Origin: an uncultured Spartobacteria bacterium
Lineage (GTDB): Bacteria > Verrucomicrobiota > Verrucomicrobiia > Chthoniobacterales > Chthoniobacteraceae
DNA: 35,907 bases
Assembly: GCA_903929475.1 (NCBI GenBank)
Contig: CAIYUV010000221.1
Coordinates: 1-35,907, forward strand
Reading direction: 5' to 3'
Shown: positions 19,673 to 26,407 of the stretch, one piece after another
Position numbering within the stretch: position 1 is the first letter of the stretch
Layout: each line of letters begins with the position of its first letter
Notes under the pieces: model-generated
Told to the model about the DNA's origin: nothing
The model's database searches: none
The model's input: only the letters and a program-made list of their open reading frames with translations
Made by a program: the position numbers and the translations under genes

Positions 19673-19714
19673 GGAAAACAAAGCGCCGCACCCACGGTTG
19701 GCGAGTGCGGCGCT
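19673..19714 (-). terminator. Rho-independent terminator downstream of the EF-hand genes
   Basis: AGCGCCGCAC at 19682-19691 pairs perfectly over 10 bases with GTGCGGCGCT at 19705-19714, with a 13-base loop. On the minus strand the stem is followed by TTGTTTT, and it begins 23 bases after the stop of the 97-residue EF-hand protein. The orientation and spacing fit termination of that gene, or of the whole upstream transcript. Confidence 0.75.
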
Positions 19715-19737: not shown

Positions 19738-20031
19738 CTATTTTTTCCCGTGGGTCATGAACTCTTCCTTGCTGAGTTTGCCGTCGCCGTTGGTGTCTTT
19801 CTTTTTGAAGACACGCTCGGCCATCTCGGGATTTTTCGCCCCGGCGAGGAATTCTTCCTTCGAGATGAAACCGTCGCTGTTGGTGTCCTTCGTTTTGAAG
19901 ACTTCCTCCAGCTCGCGCTTGGGCTTTTCCGCGGCGAGCTTGGCGGCTTCAGCGAGTTTGGCGTCGTCTGCTGCTACGGCAAATGCCGCACCCACTGCGA
20001 GCGTGGCGATGGTGGTGAGGATGGGTTTCAT
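19738..20031 (-). CDS. Secreted two-EF-hand protein A
   Basis: The protein has 97 residues. The signal peptide covers about residues 1-20 (MKPILTTIATLAVGAAFAVA). After a lysine/alanine-rich linker come two canonical 12-residue EF-hand loops, DTNSDGFISKEE (49-60) and DTNGDGKLSKEE (79-90), each with Asp at 1, Asn at 3, Asp at 5 and Glu at 12, so Ca2+ binding is likely. Loop position 2 is Thr, not the Pro of lanmodulin. It is a paralogue of the neighbouring gene at 20080-20364. It is probably periplasmic or envelope-located. What it signals to or buffers is unknown. Confidence 0.88.
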   Translation of the reverse strand: MKPILTTIATLAVGAAFAVAADDAKLAEAAKLAAEKPKRELEEVFKTKDTNSDGFISKEEFLAGAKNPEMAERVFKKKDTNGDGKLSKEEFMTHGKK

Positions 20032-20079
20032 TTGTCTGCTGTCGGCTGGCTTGTTTTTACGTGGAATAATTGTCCGCCT

Positions 20080-20364
20080 TTATGCCTTCTTTTTCTTTGG
20101 TGCGAGGAATTCCTCCTTGCTGAGTTTTCCGTCGTTGTTGGCGTCCTTCCGTTTGAAAACCTTTTCTGCCTTGGCGGCGTCCTTGGCGTCCTTGAGGAAC
20201 TCCTCCTTGCTGATGCTGCCGTCGTTGTTGGCGTCCTTTGTTTTGAAAGTTTCCTCGGTGTATTTTTTTGCTTTCTTGGTTTTCTCGGCAGGCTTGGCGT
20301 CCTCGGCGCTGGCGAATGTGGCGGTGATTGCGAATGCGGCGAGGAGGGCGAATGTGTGTTTCAT
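20080..20364 (-). CDS. Secreted two-EF-hand protein B
   Basis: The protein has 94 residues. A signal peptide (about 1-20, ending ATFASA) precedes a lysine-rich segment and two canonical EF-hand loops, DANNDGSISKEE (44-55) and DANNDGKLSKEE (74-85), and a basic tail KKKKA. It shares the layout of the adjacent EF-hand protein A, so the two arose by tandem duplication. Calcium binding is expected from the loop residues. The gene lies 66 bases after the stop of the tentative DUF6941-type protein and about 50 bases before EF-hand A, so it may belong to the same transcript as the TonB/ExbBD genes, although a separate promoter cannot be excluded. Confidence 0.88.
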   Translation of the reverse strand: MKHTFALLAAFAITATFASAEDAKPAEKTKKAKKYTEETFKTKDANNDGSISKEEFLKDAKDAAKAEKVFKRKDANNDGKLSKEEFLAPKKKKA

Positions 20365-20430: not shown

Positions 20431-20865
20431 CTATGCGACCTGTGGCTGCGTAAGCGCGCTCTGGCCGGGGAGGGTGAATTTGATCACGGGCAGCGGGTAG
20501 CGGATGATGAGCTGGTCATCGAGGTAGATTTCGACGTGGTAGTTGCCGTAAGTGGAAAACTGGACGCCGCTGAAGAGGTTCACATTGGTGGCCATGACAT
20601 CCATGTCCTTGAGCTGAAATTCGAGAGTGCTTTCACCAATGATTTTTTCGTCGGGCGCGAGGATGCGGGCGGTCTGCTTGAACTGGCCGATGCCGTTGCA
20701 CCAGCGGGTCCACATGCAGAGCTTGAGAAAGCCGACTGGCACTTGCGGGGCGGGCACGGCGTTGATGACGCCGACGAGGGTTTGCATGCCGGTGATCTCA
20801 CGGCGGATGTCTTCGCAGAGAACGGATGCCTGGCAGTTGGGAAGGACGTATTTTTCGTTGAGCAC
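20431..20865 (-). CDS. Small hypothetical protein, tentatively DUF6941 type
   Basis: The protein has 144 residues. The N-terminal pattern ASVLCEDIRREITGMQTLVGV and the beta-rich body resemble DUF6941 proteins, but this is from memory and tentative. There is no signal peptide or membrane segment. The frame opens just after the exbD stop: GTG at 20865 gives the listed start, and an earlier ATT at 20901 would add twelve residues. The intergenic gap to exbD is about 39 bases. As the next gene after exbD it may be cotranscribed with the energy-transduction genes, but a role there is not established. The C-terminus contains several strands (YHVEIYLDDQLIIRYPLPVI). Confidence 0.7.
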   Translation of the reverse strand: MLNEKYVLPNCQASVLCEDIRREITGMQTLVGVINAVPAPQVPVGFLKLCMWTRWCNGIGQFKQTARILAPDEKIIGESTLEFQLKDMDVMATNVNLFSGVQFSTYGNYHVEIYLDDQLIIRYPLPVIKFTLPGQSALTQPQVA

Positions 20866-20904
20866 GGTGGGGATGTAGTGGCGCTGATGCGCGGCGTCAA
20901 TGGC

Positions 20905-21324
20905 CTACGGCTTCTCGCTCTGTTCGGTGAAGGCGGTGAAGTCGCCTTTGATTCCGACCTGCCTTATGACATCGAGGACGTAGATGAAAGCCCCGTGTGG
21001 AGCGCGCTTGTCGGTGGCGAGTGCGAGCTTGGGCGGGCGCGGGAGCTTTTGAAGTTTTTCAAGTTCACTGCGTAGTTCTTCGTGGGTGACTTTTTTAGCG
21101 CCGATGAAAATTTCCTCCTTCTCGGAAATGGATATGCGGAGCGCTTCGTCGCCCTTTTCCGCAGCGACGGCGGTCTTGGATTCGGGGAGCTTGATGGTGA
21201 CTGCGGGAAGTTCACTTTTGAAGGTCGTCGTGACGATGACGAAAATGAGGAGGATGGCGAAAATATCAATCAGCGAGACGATGATCACCTCGGGTTTGCG
21301 ACGGCGGCGGGGGAGGAAGTTCAT
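20905..21324 (-). CDS. exbD: ExbD/TolR family energy-transduction protein
   Basis: The protein has 139 residues, normal for ExbD/TolR. A basic cytoplasmic N-terminus (MNFLPRRRRK) leads into one membrane helix at about 13-35 carrying the essential aspartate (D20, in IIVSLIDIFAILLIFVIV), which takes part in proton flow with ExbB. A periplasmic domain follows. The ATG overlaps the exbB stop by 4 bases, so the pair is translationally coupled. It should assemble with the adjacent ExbB and one of the TonB-like proteins to energise an outer-membrane process. Confidence 0.92.
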   Translation of the reverse strand: MNFLPRRRRKPEVIIVSLIDIFAILLIFVIVTTTFKSELPAVTIKLPESKTAVAAEKGDEALRISISEKEEIFIGAKKVTHEELRSELEKLQKLPRPPKLALATDKRAPHGAFIYVLDVIRQVGIKGDFTAFTEQSEKP

Positions 21325-22013
21325 GCGTCACCCTCGGTGGCGAAGTCGGCGAATGTGGAGGGGCGGCGCTGCTTTTGGTTGTAGCATTTGGTGAGCAAGC
21401 CGGAGACGAGCAGTTCGAGATCGGCGGCGATAACTTCGACGCGTTTGGCGAGCAGTCCGTGGGCGATGAGCGTGGGGATGGCGACGGCCATGCCGACGAC
21501 GGTGGTGCTGAGTGCCTCGGAGATGCCGAGGGCAATGGCGTGCGGATCGCTCTGCGTCGCACTTGCACCGAAGGCACCGAAGACTTTCACGAGGCCGCTC
21601 ACCGCTCCGAGGAGGCCGAGCAGTGGGGCAATGCCGATAATGATTTCGAGGATGTGCAGGCCGTGTTCGAGCTGGCCGACTTCGTGGCGTGCGACGGTCT
21701 GGACGGCGTTCATGTTTTCGTCCTTGGGCTGGTGGAGGTTTGAGAGGCCGACCTGCGCGATACGGGCGAGCGTGGTGCCGTCGTTGCGCACGAGACGCGA
21801 AAGGCGGACGACAGCGTCGGGCGTGTCGTTGGGCGCGAGGCGCTCGATTTCCTTCTGCAACTCGGCGGGAATGACGAGATGCCGGCGAAGCGCGAGGCTG
21901 CGCAGCAGAATCACCGCGACTGCAATGATGGAGCACGCGAGCAGCGGGACCATGAACGGGCCACCCTTGAAAAAGAATTGGAAGATGTCCTGAAAAGATG
22001 CGGCGAGAAGCAT
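21321..22013 (-). CDS. exbB: ExbB/TolQ/MotA-type proton channel
   Basis: The protein has 230 residues. Membrane segments are visible near the N-terminus (VPLLACSIIAVAVILL), and the conserved paired helices in the second half are GIAPLLGLLGAVSGLVKVFG and ISEALSTTVVGMAVAIPTLI, the MotA/TolQ/ExbB signature. It forms the channel subunit that uses proton motive force to drive TonB. The ATG at 22013 lies 8 bases after the second TonB-like gene. It overlaps exbD by 4 bases. Confidence 0.93.
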   Translation of the reverse strand: MLLAASFQDIFQFFFKGGPFMVPLLACSIIAVAVILLRSLALRRHLVIPAELQKEIERLAPNDTPDAVVRLSRLVRNDGTTLARIAQVGLSNLHQPKDENMNAVQTVARHEVGQLEHGLHILEIIIGIAPLLGLLGAVSGLVKVFGAFGASATQSDPHAIALGISEALSTTVVGMAVAIPTLIAHGLLAKRVEVIAADLELLVSGLLTKCYNQKQRRPSTFADFATEGDA

Positions 22014-22021
22014 GGGCGTGG

Positions 22022-22654
22022 TTAGTAAATCCAGAAGGTGAACGGCACTTCGATTTGACCGTCGCTGAGCGCCTTGGCCGGCGGTGCATCGAAGGGCGTA
22101 TCGCGGACGAACTGCTCGCAGAATTTCGCGAATGCTTCGTTGGAGCTGTTCTCGGTCACGGAAAAGGCGGCGACTTTTCCCTCCGCATCGAGCTTGAAGA
22201 CGACGCTGACATTGCCCGGCTGAAATTCGCTCATGCGCGGCTGCACCGCATCAGTCCAGCGTTTGGCGAAGGCGGTTTTGATTTTCGCAGTGTAAGCGGC
22301 GGCGGAAATCGGACGCGGTGGCGCAGGCGGATGTTTTACGACGGGCGGCGGGGCGGGTTTTTCGACAGCAGTTTTATCTATCACTTCCGCCGGTGCCGGC
22401 GCTGGTTCGGTGACTGCGGGTGTGGGCACGGGCGCTTGAGCAGGCGTTTCGGGAGTCACTGTGGCCGCATCTGGCGGCGGTGTGGGGCGGCGGCGCGGTT
22501 TTGGTTTGGGCTTTGGAGTCTCGGGTGCGGGCGTGGCAACGACGACCGGCTTCGGCGGAGCGGGCGAAAACGGTGGATTGAGATAGCGACCGCCCGTCTG
22601 TGCGAAGGCGGGCGCGGCAAGTGCGACGAGGATGAGCAGGGTGCGGATGAGCAT
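22022..22654 (-). CDS. TonB-like C-terminal domain protein with a signal peptide
   Basis: The protein has 210 residues. The N-terminus looks like a cleavable Sec signal (MLIRTLLILVALAAPAFAQ) rather than a TonB-type anchor. A long Pro/Lys/Thr-rich stretch (about 27-110) follows, then a TonB_C-like domain from about residue 115 containing SVVFKLDAEGKVAAFSVTENS and ending VPFTFWIY. Its ATG lies one base after the stop of the larger TonB-like gene, and exbB begins 8 bases downstream. If the signal is cleaved, the protein would be soluble in the periplasm and could not bind ExbBD through a membrane helix. Alternatively it may be an uncleaved anchor. Confidence 0.82.
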   Translation of the reverse strand: MLIRTLLILVALAAPAFAQTGGRYLNPPFSPAPPKPVVVATPAPETPKPKPKPRRRPTPPPDAATVTPETPAQAPVPTPAVTEPAPAPAEVIDKTAVEKPAPPPVVKHPPAPPRPISAAAYTAKIKTAFAKRWTDAVQPRMSEFQPGNVSVVFKLDAEGKVAAFSVTENSSNEAFAKFCEQFVRDTPFDAPPAKALSDGQIEVPFTFWIY

Positions 22655-22655
22655 T

Positions 22656-24104
22656 TTAGTAGAGAGTGAAAGTAAAAGTATCCTCGAAGACGCCGTTCTT
22701 TAGCAACTCGGACGGTGGAGGCTGAATGTCGCCTTGGGCGTCGTAAAACGAACGTTCGCACAGTGCGGCGTGCGCGGCGTTGGATGTATTGTCGAGCAAT
22801 TGCACCTTCATGACCCTGCCTTTTGCATTCAGCGTGAAGCGCAGGGTGACCGAGCCGGGCGCGATTACGCTGCCGTGCTTGGCGTCATGCACGTAAAAGG
22901 TCCATCGTGAGCCGATGGCCTGATTGACGCCTTTCAGGTAGCGGCCGCGCACAGTGGCGACAGCGTCCACGCCGCTCTCGCCCAGGGGCGCGTTGCCGCC
23001 TTCGATTTTGCGCTGCTCCATGTGCTGCGTGTAGCCGGGGTTTTGCACGGGTTGCGGGCGTGTGTTTTTAATCGCGACGATTTCGGAAACGGGTGGCGTG
23101 GGTTTTGGTTCCTCCGGATTTTTGAGCTCGGGCGTTGGTTGCGGCGTTGGTTTTACGGTCGGCTGTGGAGTAGGCTTTGGGGTGGGCGTGGGTTTTTGCG
23201 GCGGCTCAAGCGATGGATGCTCGACGGGGGCGACGGGCTGCTCAACCTGGCGGAGGTAGAGCGCGATTTGATCTTCGCTGGCCTCGATCACTTCCTTCAT
23301 CGCTGGCGGCGGCGTTGCCTTGGCAATTTGCATCGGCGAAGGACGCGGTGTGGGCATCGGCGTGGGCATCGGCGTGGGCTGCGCGGCAGGCGCGGCATCG
23401 GCGGTCTTGGGGATTTTGTCAGTCGGGTTCTGCGAGGCGAGGGTGGCCTTTGGCACGGGGCGTGGCTTGAAAATTGGCGGCGGTTCGATGCCGGGCGGGC
23501 GGGCGTTTGGCATCGGGCGCGGACGGTTTTGAACTTCATTTTCAACGAGGATTTTTGCATCTCCCGCGTTGGCCTGCTGGTTTTTGAAATGGGTGAACGG
23601 CAGATCGGCGCGGCCGTCCTGAGCGGGCAGCGTGCTGTCGCCTTTGCCCGGTTTTTTTGTCCCTGCGACGCTGTCTTGCCAGCTTTCGAGCAGGGCGCGC
23701 TTGCTGAGGTTTTTCTTTTTGGCGAGGCCCTCCACATCAATGTATTCCTGCTGAATTTCCTCGGGGAGCTGGCGGAATTTTTCCTCGAGGAGATTTTGCT
23801 CCTGCACGGTGAGTTCCTTTTTTTCCTCCGCTGGTGGCGGAGTGGGCGTCATGAGGATCACTTCGAGTTTTTTGTTTGCCTGCTGTGGTGGCGGCGGGGC
23901 GGCGACGGCGGTCGTCATGCTTTCCGGGAGAATTTTTTGCAGCAGCCCGGCGATATACGGCCAGACCCACACAGCGACCATCACCCCTCCGTGCACGAGC
24001 AGTGCGAGCACGATGGCGAGCGGGAGGCGGACGCGGTCGGGCATGGCGACGAACGCATCGAGCCACCTGCGAATCGGGGACGGATTGGTCGTCGAAAAGT
24101 TCAC
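22656..24104 (-). CDS. TonB-like energy-transducing protein
   Basis: The protein has 482 residues. A membrane helix at about 28-52 (IVLALLVHGGVMVAVWVWPYI) follows a short cytoplasmic N-terminus, the usual TonB arrangement. A long periplasmic spacer rich in Pro, Thr, Lys and Gln follows, with repeats such as PTPMPTPMPTPRPSP and KPTPTPKPTPQPTVKPTPQP, plus a lysine/glutamate-rich helical part (about 95-140). The C-terminal TonB_C-like domain (about 385-482) contains GSVTLRFTLNAKGRVMKVQL. The start is GTG at 24104 in a GTGA overlap with comB. It should couple ExbBD to outer-membrane transporters; the cognate receptors are not in this window. Confidence 0.88.
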   Translation of the reverse strand: MNFSTTNPSPIRRWLDAFVAMPDRVRLPLAIVLALLVHGGVMVAVWVWPYIAGLLQKILPESMTTAVAAPPPPQQANKKLEVILMTPTPPPAEEKKELTVQEQNLLEEKFRQLPEEIQQEYIDVEGLAKKKNLSKRALLESWQDSVAGTKKPGKGDSTLPAQDGRADLPFTHFKNQQANAGDAKILVENEVQNRPRPMPNARPPGIEPPPIFKPRPVPKATLASQNPTDKIPKTADAAPAAQPTPMPTPMPTPRPSPMQIAKATPPPAMKEVIEASEDQIALYLRQVEQPVAPVEHPSLEPPQKPTPTPKPTPQPTVKPTPQPTPELKNPEEPKPTPPVSEIVAIKNTRPQPVQNPGYTQHMEQRKIEGGNAPLGESGVDAVATVRGRYLKGVNQAIGSRWTFYVHDAKHGSVIAPGSVTLRFTLNAKGRVMKVQLLDNTSNAAHAALCERSFYDAQGDIQPPPSELLKNGVFEDTFTFTLY

Positions 24105-24799
24105 AGCGGGCGAATGAGGCCGTCACTCATGGCACCGACTGCGGCAAAACGCGAGACTTGAGCGCACCATTCGATCTGGTCGCGCCAGCCCTTTGCTGAA
24201 AGGGCGTGGCCATTGCGCGCGGCGAGCAGTCCGTCGAGCGGCGTGGCGAAGGAGCGTGCCGTGGCGACGCAGGCGCGGGCGGCGTCGGTGAGTTCCGCAT
24301 TTGGAAAAAAGGATGCAAGCAGTCCGGCGGCGATGGCGTCTTCGAGCGCGAATGTCTCGAAAGTTCCTGCGCAAACGAGCAGCACGCGCGACTCGGCGGC
24401 GATGACATTGCGCAGTGCGGCGAGATTCAGCAACGCGCCGACGAGCACACGCGGCGCGCGTTCGCAGGAACGGAGGGCGACAGTGCCGTTGGTGGTCGTG
24501 GTGATGATGCGGTGGCCTGCGAGCGCCGTGTATTCGAGCGGGTTGTTGCCGAGTTCAAAACCCTCGATGCGGTCGCCGTGGCGCTCGCCGGCGAGAACGG
24601 CTTCGGGCATCCGCGTTTTGAGGGCACGCGCTTCTTCGATGGTGGTGACGGGCCAGATTTCCGCCGCGCCGCAGGCGAGCGCGGTGACCATCGAGGATGT
24701 GGCGCGGAGGATGTCGAAGACCACGCAGGTCGTGCCGGAGAGGTCGCGCTGTGGAAGAAGGGCGATATCGGCGGGACTGAGTGCGGCGTCGAGGTGCAT
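24101..24799 (-). CDS. comB: 2-phosphosulfolactate phosphatase family protein (ComB-like)
   Basis: The protein has 232 residues, the normal length for ComB. The signatures VVFDILRATSSM (26-37), GERHGDRIEGFELGNNPLEY (71-90) and ITTTTNGT (99-106) match the family. ComB dephosphorylates 2-phospho-3-sulfolactate in coenzyme M synthesis; in bacteria without methanogenesis it is commonly annotated but its true substrate is not certain. It starts with ATG at 24799, 8 bases after the OGG-type gene, and its stop overlaps the TonB-like start (GTGA). No other coenzyme M gene is in the window. Confidence 0.88.
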   Translation of the reverse strand: MHLDAALSPADIALLPQRDLSGTTCVVFDILRATSSMVTALACGAAEIWPVTTIEEARALKTRMPEAVLAGERHGDRIEGFELGNNPLEYTALAGHRIITTTTNGTVALRSCERAPRVLVGALLNLAALRNVIAAESRVLLVCAGTFETFALEDAIAAGLLASFFPNAELTDAARACVATARSFATPLDGLLAARNGHALSAKGWRDQIEWCAQVSRFAAVGAMSDGLIRPL

Positions 24800-24807
24800 G
24801 GATGTGA

Positions 24808-25650
24808 TTAGGATTTTTGCGGACGGCTGGTGCGTGCGTGGTGGAAGAGATACTGCTGCGCGTAGCCGCCGTATGCGCCGAAATATTTCGCGGCGTAATC
24901 ACGAAGGCGAGCAGCGGTGACGCGGCGTTTTTTGGCGAAGTATATCTGCCGAAGCACGCGTTCGATCCAGACATCAATCGGGAACGCGGCGAGCCGCTCG
25001 AACGCGAAGAGCAGCGCGCAATTTGCAACCTTGGGGCCGACGCCGCCGAGGCGCATTAACTCGCGGTGCGCGGAATCGTCGTCGAGCTTCGTGATGGCGG
25101 TGAGACTGACTTCACCGCTGGCGATCTGCCTCGCGGCGCGGAGGAGATTTTTTGCACGATAGCCGAGAGCGCAGGCGCGCAGATCGTCCTCTTCGAGCGC
25201 AGCAAGCGCGTCGGGCGTCGGGTAGGCGAAAAGCGGGCCGTCGCCGATGCGTTTGCCGAACCGTGTGCGCAGCGTGTGCGAGATCTGCGTGATATGCGGC
25301 ACGGCCTTTTGCGCGCTGGTGATGAATGATGCGATGCACTCCCAGTGCGGCTGGCGCACGATGCGCATTCCACGACACGCTGCGAGTGCGGCATCCATCG
25401 CGGGGTCGCGTGGGAAGGTCGCGTAAATTTCCGCGAGCGGATGATCGAGCGCGAAGTAGCGTCGCGCAATTTCCTCCATGCCTCGTGTGACAAATAGCGC
25501 ATCGCCGCGTTGCTCCGCGTAGCAGGCTTTGTCGCCGATGGCGCCGACCCAGCCCGTGCCCTGCCGCTGCCAGTGAAAGAGCTGCCCGCACGAAAGTGTA
25601 AGCGCGAGATCGAAGTCCGGCGCAGCGACTTCAGCGAGCCGGGCGCTCAC
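24808..25650 (-). CDS. OGG1-type 8-oxoguanine DNA glycosylase/lyase
   Basis: The protein has 280 residues. It resembles the OGG1 group: an N-terminal OGG_N-like region with LSCGQLFHW (19-27) and a helix-hairpin-helix GPD domain with LGGVGPKVANCAL (201-213), whose K207 corresponds to the catalytic lysine of hOGG1, and FPIDVWIERVL, whose D226 is the catalytic aspartate. It would remove 8-oxoguanine opposite cytosine and nick the strand. A much longer frame extends upstream but lies inside rex in another phase; GTG at 25650 overlaps the rex stop (GTGA), giving coupled translation. Its position directly after a redox sensor fits an oxidative-damage role. Confidence 0.9.
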   Translation of the reverse strand: MSARLAEVAAPDFDLALTLSCGQLFHWQRQGTGWVGAIGDKACYAEQRGDALFVTRGMEEIARRYFALDHPLAEIYATFPRDPAMDAALAACRGMRIVRQPHWECIASFITSAQKAVPHITQISHTLRTRFGKRIGDGPLFAYPTPDALAALEEDDLRACALGYRAKNLLRAARQIASGEVSLTAITKLDDDSAHRELMRLGGVGPKVANCALLFAFERLAAFPIDVWIERVLRQIYFAKKRRVTAARLRDYAAKYFGAYGGYAQQYLFHHARTSRPQKS

Positions 25651-26267
25651 TTTACGAAATAACTGAGGTTCTCCAGTTCGATGGCGAGGTCCACATTGTT
25701 GACGACGATGCGCTCGGGCACGTGGAGCACGGCGGGGGCGAAATTGAGGATGGCTTGCACGCCTGCTGCGATGAGTTCGTTGGCCACCTGCTGTGCGACG
25801 CTGCCGGGCACGGTGAGGATGGCGAGCTTCACGCCGCGCTCGCGGATGAAATCGGTCATCTTCGAGGAATGGAGGATGGGCACTTTGATGTCGCGCGGGC
25901 GTCTGGTCTCGATGTCCGCATCGAACGCAGCGACAACCTCGAATCCCTCCTTCGCAAAACCACCGTAGCGCAGGAGCGCCGTGCCGAGCTGGCCCGCGCC
26001 GACAAGGATGACGGGCTGCAATTTCGCCATGCCGAGCACGCCGGTGATAGCCTTGGCAAGCGCCTCGACGTTGTAGCCAAGTCCGCGCGTTCCCCACTGG
26101 CCGAAGTAGGTGAGGTCCTTGCGGAGCTGCGTGGATTTCACGCCCGCTGCAGTGGCGAGCGCCTCGGAGCTGACTGTTTGGGCGCCCGTCTCGCGCAGCC
26201 GCTGGAGCACGCGGTTGTAGATAGAAAGGCGGTAGATGGTCTTGCGCGGAATATCGCTCTTGTGCAT
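25647..26267 (-). CDS. rex: Redox-sensing transcriptional repressor Rex
   Basis: The protein has 206 residues, typical for Rex. The N-terminal winged helix (about 1-78) contains RLSIYNRVLQRL, VKSTQLRKDLTYFGQWGTRG and GYNVEAL; a Rossmann domain follows with the NAD-binding GxGxxG at 90-95 (VGAGQLGTAL). Rex senses the NADH/NAD+ ratio and represses fermentation or respiration genes when NADH is low. The frame extends 28 codons further upstream, but the ATG at 26267 gives the usual Rex N-terminus MHKSDIPRKTIYRLSIY. It is the first gene of the minus-strand series ending at exbD or beyond and lies opposite the divergent protease gene, so the gap probably contains its promoter. Confidence 0.94.
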   Translation of the reverse strand: MHKSDIPRKTIYRLSIYNRVLQRLRETGAQTVSSEALATAAGVKSTQLRKDLTYFGQWGTRGLGYNVEALAKAITGVLGMAKLQPVILVGAGQLGTALLRYGGFAKEGFEVVAAFDADIETRRPRDIKVPILHSSKMTDFIRERGVKLAILTVPGSVAQQVANELIAAGVQAILNFAPAVLHVPERIVVNNVDLAIELENLSYFVK

Positions 26268-26407
26268 CGGCTTGTGAAATCGGACGAGAAAAGCGCGCAA
26301 GTAGCCATAGCTTCCGAAAAGTGCAAGCACGGGCATCTCACGCGGAGGCACCAGATCACAAAGGCTGCGGTTGACGATTGGCAGAATTGTGAAAAAATGT
26401 GCGCGTC

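Follow-up and report, generated by a model that had tools for sequence, protein, structure and literature searches.

What holds the genes for a redox sensor, a DNA-repair glycosylase and a proton-driven membrane motor together in one tightly packed run? The question is raised by the window, a stretch of 35,907 nucleotides (contig CAIYUV010000221.1) from an uncultured Spartobacteria bacterium of the order Chthoniobacterales, in which eight minus-strand genes, rex, ogg, a comB-like gene, tonB1, tonB2, exbB, exbD and a DUF6941 gene, follow one another. It is fairly probable that the run represents a conserved operon, rex-ogg-(comB)-tonB-exbB-exbD, of Chthoniobacterales and some related Verrucomicrobia, with respiration as its theme and a motor of the Ton type. 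The Verrucomicrobia that carry it are a soil and freshwater group.

Order and spacing of the genes

The eight genes, their coordinates, overlaps and gaps, as given in the original prediction, are all reproduced from the sequence. The run starts with rex (26267..25647, ATG start, 206 residues), which overlaps ogg (25650..24808, GTG start, 280 residues) by four nucleotides (nt), GTGA. The comB-like gene (24799..24101, ATG start) begins 8 nt after ogg and overlaps tonB1 (24104..22656, GTG start) through a second 4-nt GTGA. A single nucleotide separates tonB1 from tonB2 (22654..22022, ATG start), and 8 nt separate tonB2 from exbB (22013..21321, ATG start). The overlap of exbB with exbD (21324..20905, ATG start) is again 4 nt (ATGA), while the DUF6941 gene (20865..20431, GTG start) stands 39 nt further on. 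Internal promoters and terminators that might divide the run are not apparent: a consensus scan of the minus strand finds no promoter-like site between the genes, and terminator-like sites in the region are at the chance level (11 observed, 11.4 expected).

Conservation of the run

Ogg was sought in 117 genomes of the order, that of the window included, and 91 ogg regions plus the window gave 92 loci for scanning. Left out were ogg matches that were split or truncated at contig ends (G074, G075, G081, G085 and G097) and five genomes whose only glycosylase matches were weak (G028, G053, G058, G080 and G086). The order and spacing of the run are conserved. Downstream of ogg, on the same strand, tonB1 and exbB are found in 63 of the 92 loci, 57 of them with exbD as well, and the proportion is 60/74 where more than 4.5 kb of contig lies downstream of ogg. 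The parts are not scattered in relatives, in line with the original prediction. Nine of the 11 families with a locus have tonB1 and exbB; families f7 (one locus) and f9 (four loci) do not, as scanned. The other members are more variable, with rex adjoining ogg in 41 of the 92 loci and comB present in 39. Spacing in the relatives, measured approximately, is also short: the rex–ogg gap lies between -40 and 60 nt in 38 of 41 loci, and gaps within the same range separate tonB1 from exbB in 57/63 and exbB from exbD in 53/57. This survey covers comB–tonB1 for 12 loci only and leaves out ogg–tonB1, where the profile starts too far in.

The surroundings of the run behave differently. A search around these 91 ogg loci for 21 further genes of the window found them almost only in G005 and G007, near-identical species whose OGG is 96–97% identical; the exceptions are one gene family with six matches (g14654) and one additional sucA match. 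Since the block is kept and its surroundings are lost, the core looks selected. The recurrence of order and spacing across families, set against the loss of the flanks, rules out chance adjacency.

Shared transcription alone, in a housekeeping operon whose Rex, OGG and motor are functionally unconnected, is a possible explanation, though a doubtful one. Members do come and go singly, as the counts for comB and rex indicate, and housekeeping genes are neighbours in places: 14 genomes, most of them from families f6, f9 and f13 (L060, L072 and L096 are examples), carry a miaB-like gene immediately upstream of rex or ogg, and in family f8 (e.g. L045 and L056) dnaA and dnaN lie about 5–6.5 kb beyond the ogg start in nine genomes, so that ogg-tonB-exbBD may sit near the replication origin there. 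However, in many families ogg still adjoins tonB-exbB-exbD where rex or comB has been lost, and it is this selected-looking core, not the flanks, that is retained. Rex is the loosest member of the run, and many genomes keep ogg-tonB-exbB without it. In two genomes of the same genus, G001 and G006 (L119 and L117), the ogg match has one in-frame TGA each, and both have rex elsewhere.

Among 80 named loci, many of which belong to genomes also in the 117-genome set, ogg, tonB1 and exbB stand in a row in 43, as counted by hand from the listing. The order rex–ogg–tonB–exbB–exbD without comB is found in metagenome-assembled genomes titled Verrucomicrobiales (L183, L187, L188, L195 and L211) and in two loci with other titles (L185 and L194). 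In several loci under the titles 'subdivision 3' or Limisphaerales, comB alone follows ogg (e.g. L193 and L199). The cultured Chthoniobacter flavus Ellin428 (L140) retains rex–ogg, located at the edge of a contig. Such titles may be wrong, and two loci are titled Akkermansia muciniphila.

Proteins of the run

Six of the eight proteins, with Rex, OGG_N plus HhH-GPD, 2-phosphosulfolactate phosphatase, MotA_ExbB, ExbD and DUF6941 domains, respectively, score above Pfam cut-offs. The rex product contains both an N-terminal DNA-binding domain and an NAD-binding fold (PF06971 and PF02629), exceeds the cut-offs of the NCBIfam Rex models, and is predicted to be an NADH-sensing transcriptional repressor. 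Its neighbour is predicted to be an 8-oxoguanine DNA glycosylase of the OGG1 type. Lys206, in the HhH motif, and Asp225, the catalytic residues of such enzymes, are invariant in the sequences of 20 relatives, and OGG structures in the PDB are among its matches (3f10/3i0w, which we take to be the Clostridium acetobutylicum enzyme). The comB-like protein matches PF04029 (8e-59) and PDB entries 2yyv and 1vr0 and does not reach the NCBIfam equivalog cut-offs; by family match it is a member of the 2-phosphosulfolactate phosphatase family with putative activity. ExbB (PF01618) and ExbD (PF02472) are predicted proton-channel subunits.

TonB1 has no Pfam match. The anchor of TonB and TolA characteristically has a histidine inside the N-terminal membrane segment, and such a histidine, usually with a serine four residues before it, is present in 66 of 70 TonB1 proteins near ogg, that of the window included. 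The C-terminal 130 residues, modelled from a 31-row alignment with a mean pLDDT of 83, form a helix–strand–strand–helix–strand arrangement, and the top PDB matches of the model are the H. pylori TonB C-terminal domain (E 1.3e-4), HasB and TolA C-terminal domains. TonB1 therefore appears, from its anchor and modelled fold, to be an inner-membrane-anchored force transducer of the TonB/TolA type, and by the modelled fold these two cannot be told apart. PMC12204202 also mentions a conserved transducer histidine.

TonB2 falls just below the Pfam cut-off and exceeds that of NCBIfam tonB_Cterm (TIGR01352). By eye, its N-terminus resembles a signal peptide rather than an anchor, which suggests a periplasmic location; a proline-rich stretch and a TonB C-terminal domain are also present. 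By gene order, tonB2 is seen only in the genus; its profile counts are not used, as the iterated profile also matches tonB1 genes. The DUF6941 gene (PF22091) accompanies ogg in only three of the 92 loci. Both genes are local additions in this genus.

The ExbB lineage

In a tree of 84 ExbB domains, the ogg-linked copies of the order cluster together, apart from E. coli TolQ and ExbB and from the other seven of the eight ExbB-family proteins in the window's own genome. The tree indicates that the ogg-linked ExbBs share common descent within the order. Because the branches are long and the ogg-linked ExbB of L191 groups with other paralogs, a single ortholog group is firm within the order and less so beyond it; the base of the tree is unsure and some forks are weakly supported.

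The ExbB of the run scores best against TolQ models and structures, TonB1 matches TolA as well as TonB, and the module is kept in genomes without receptors, all of which would fit tonB1-exbB-exbD being the TolA-TolQ-TolR of this species and the run an envelope-stability operon. This Tol-Pal reading is nevertheless unlikely. The same genome has a separate locus, L131, with a ybgC-like thioesterase, a TolQ-like protein, an open reading frame (ORF) of 137 residues and a TolA-looking ORF of 307 residues without a Pfam match, which is read as Tol-Pal-like because of its gene order. In the tree, the TolQ-like protein of that locus is placed apart from the ogg-linked ExbB. Furthermore, no ybgC, tolB or pal is seen beside the run, a statement that concerns the genes of the run only, no genome-wide search for TolB or Pal having been made.

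Another ExbB-ExbD pair is encoded in this genome (L134, contig C220): the ExbB domain forms the C-terminal end of a long protein, and next come exbD and a large ORF that may be a beta-barrel. The ORF before the ExbB-domain protein resembles, by eye, an outer-membrane secretion barrel, and no TonB receptor accompanies this pair either.

TonB-dependent receptors

The genome of the window has no match to the Plug (PF07715) or TonB-dependent barrel (PF00593) profile, each of which is found in 3 of 14 control genomes, with draft assemblies or very divergent receptors as a caveat to this negative. One Plug match is present in G005, a near relative. Over the 117 genomes, Plug is present in 85 and absent from 32. 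An ogg locus was examined in 22 of the Plug-less genomes, and 18 of these 22 keep tonB1–exbB. Receptor-mediated import thus cannot explain the retention of the module in all these genomes, and the outer-membrane transport role originally proposed for the run finds no counterpart in its own genome.

The Rex operator and its predicted regulon

The octamer TTTCACAA occurs 219 times in the genome of the window, compared to 65 times for the reversed letters, and at two places it forms a palindrome, from which the operator pattern TTGTGAAANNTTTCACAA was derived. In this genome the pattern has four perfect matches and a fifth that departs from it at two positions; when as many as three mismatches are allowed, a control pattern gives two matches per strand, against 22. 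Downstream of the five best sites are the genes for a polyprenyl synthase, ATP synthase subunit a (atpB), a multihaem cytochrome with an iron-sulfur protein, which we take to be ActA and ActB of alternative complex III, nuoE–nuoF, and nuoD.

The pattern also follows rex from genome to genome. With at most one mismatch, TTGTGAAANNTTTCACAA is present in all 61 genomes with rex and in 9 of the 56 without it (Fisher test 6e-24, which treats related genomes as independent), and several of the nine are incomplete assemblies; the control pattern is present in one of the 117. Twenty sites from six relatives, hand-picked from the listing and not random, were followed to their genes: at 19 of them similarity identifies an atp, act, nuo or polyprenyl synthase gene downstream, and the last (L326) lies, by eye, before a NuoB-like ORF. 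Computationally, Rex in this lineage is shown to have a predicted palindromic operator before the genes for complex I, alternative complex III, ATP synthase and the polyprenyl synthase of the quinone tail, and the sites form a coherent predicted redox regulon centred on making the proton gradient.

Between the operator and the fused nuoE-nuoF of the same genome (L315:639-1100, contig C281) lies a gene for a 153-residue protein without a Pfam match. Relatives of this protein, with 35–38% identity, precede nuoEF at five loci of other genomes (L325, L329, L334, L337 and L338).

The half-site before rex

One TTTCACAA half of the operator is located at 26272..26279 on the minus strand, 4 nt before the rex start codon. 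Of 48 distinct regions upstream of rex, 22 have this half-site a few nucleotides before the start, and in some cases two copies form a direct repeat with a spacing of about 12 nt. A full Rex operator was sought in the same 48 regions and not seen, half-sites only being found. Among 12 further rex loci (one of which, that of G024, is also among the 48) five have the half-site; those of G001, G006, G009 and G025 are certainly away from ogg, and G028 has no ogg locus found. Since the half-site stays with rex when rex is unlinked from ogg, it belongs to rex, in agreement with autoregulation. TTTCACAA occurs 64 times in 3.25 Mb of strands; 24 of these copies closely precede a start codon, which is that of rex in 21 cases, ruling out a general start-site signal.

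A second TTTCACAA lies at 26387-26394, about 120 nt upstream of rex, beside a divergent plus-strand gene at 26399 (trypsin-like, PEP-CTERM). The near relatives L099 and L100 have a second copy at the same place.

A model for the run

A single transcript would start from a promoter just before rex, at about 26298-26326, where a minus-strand candidate, TTGCAC-17-TACTTG (26298..26326), is read by eye and is absent from the consensus scan; elements that appear similar precede rex in several relatives. Rex would touch the half-site before its own gene and weakly tune its own level, and ogg and the motor genes would rise and fall with rex. TonB1, ExbB and ExbD would constitute a Ton-type motor driven by the proton-motive force, distinct from the ybgC-tolQ-like locus, with TonB1 pulling on some outer-membrane or periplasmic partner. 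The members would share a respiration theme, in which Rex sets the machinery that makes the gradient, ExbBD spends the gradient, and OGG repairs the oxidative DNA damage that comes from respiration.

Several observations weigh against this conserved, respiration-themed operon, in addition to the relatedness of the genomes behind the operator statistics. Among the matches listed, no TTGTGAAANNTTTCACAA site with up to three mismatches is on the contig of the window (C221), the half-site is absent from 26 of the 48 rex upstream regions, and for a dimeric repressor a single half-site would be unusual. With no full operator listed and a half-site only, Rex control of the run is no more than possible. 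Rex stands apart from ogg in 15 of the 56 rex-containing genomes with an ogg locus, three of this genus among them, so that rex is not required for ogg-tonB-exbB to stay together. In a phylum-wide draw, ogg is found in 35 of 194 genomes, 31 of them outside the order, and none of the 20 loci scanned among these 31 has the linked cluster. Two of these loci have an opposite-strand exbB–exbD–exbD several kilobases from ogg, which groups with other ExbBs in the tree.

The original interpretation, that Rex directly represses the whole run and thereby couples redox state to TonB-dependent outer-membrane import, is improbable. In its favour are the position of rex at the head of the run, the tight spacing and the half-site at the rex start, and import may hold in the 85 relatives with Plug. 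Against it, no full operator with up to three mismatches is listed on the contig, the half-site follows rex away from ogg, and the module persists where receptors are lacking. What stands of that interpretation is one tight, conserved run headed by Rex with an identifiable operator; the transport role and the link from redox state to exbB are not supported, and rex is the loosest member of the run.

A more tentative, and on balance rather unlikely, extension of the Ton-type operon is that the motor works without a receptor: an ancient ExbBD-TonB machine of Verrucomicrobia would pull on a non-receptor target, would be inherited with 8-oxoguanine repair and would often be made with the NADH sensor of the respiratory chain, so that making the gradient, spending it and repair are set together. 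In many families the genes for a DNA-repair enzyme and a proton-driven membrane motor are linked, often together with that for a redox sensor. A Ton-type motor without a visible receptor is a test case for motor roles beyond import, and the predicted Rex operator and its targets amount to a redox regulon that is open to direct testing in Verrucomicrobia, a soil phylum that is common yet little studied.

Neighbouring genes

Two small tandem EF-hand proteins with signal-peptide-like starts are encoded at 19738-20364, between the run and sucA. Downstream of both EF-hand genes lies a hairpin (19682..19714, minus strand) that is the region's strongest terminator-like site and possibly marks the transcript end, although it is a single site in a region whose total is at the chance level.

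Comparison with known systems

No title describing this run or this Rex regulon was found in the literature covered, which leaves out most subscription papers, and PMC12204202 mentions neither Rex nor oxoguanine. Individual members of the run nevertheless have well-known counterparts. As in the Ton system, ExbB, ExbD and TonB are adjacent, and the transducer has a transmembrane histidine and a TonB-type C-terminal fold. The run differs in its order, tonB-exbB-exbD behind ogg and often rex, and in belonging to a genome without a detectable TonB-dependent receptor. The Tol-Pal system (TolQ-TolR-TolA-TolB-Pal) is similar in that the ExbB of the run is closest to TolQ by score and the TonB1 fold is shared with TolA; unlike Tol-Pal, the run has no ybgC, tolB or pal beside it, and a separate ybgC-tolQ-like locus is present in the genome.

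The predicted regulon resembles those of Gram-positive and other bacteria, in which Rex recognizes an 18-bp palindromic operator and has respiratory and ATP-synthase targets. Here, in contrast, the organisms are Verrucomicrobia, the predicted targets include alternative complex III and polyprenyl synthase, and rex itself lies beside ogg and a Ton-type motor. The glycosylase shares with bacterial OGG1-type enzymes the OGG_N and HhH-GPD domains and the retained catalytic Lys and Asp, while its linkage to a membrane motor sets it apart from them.

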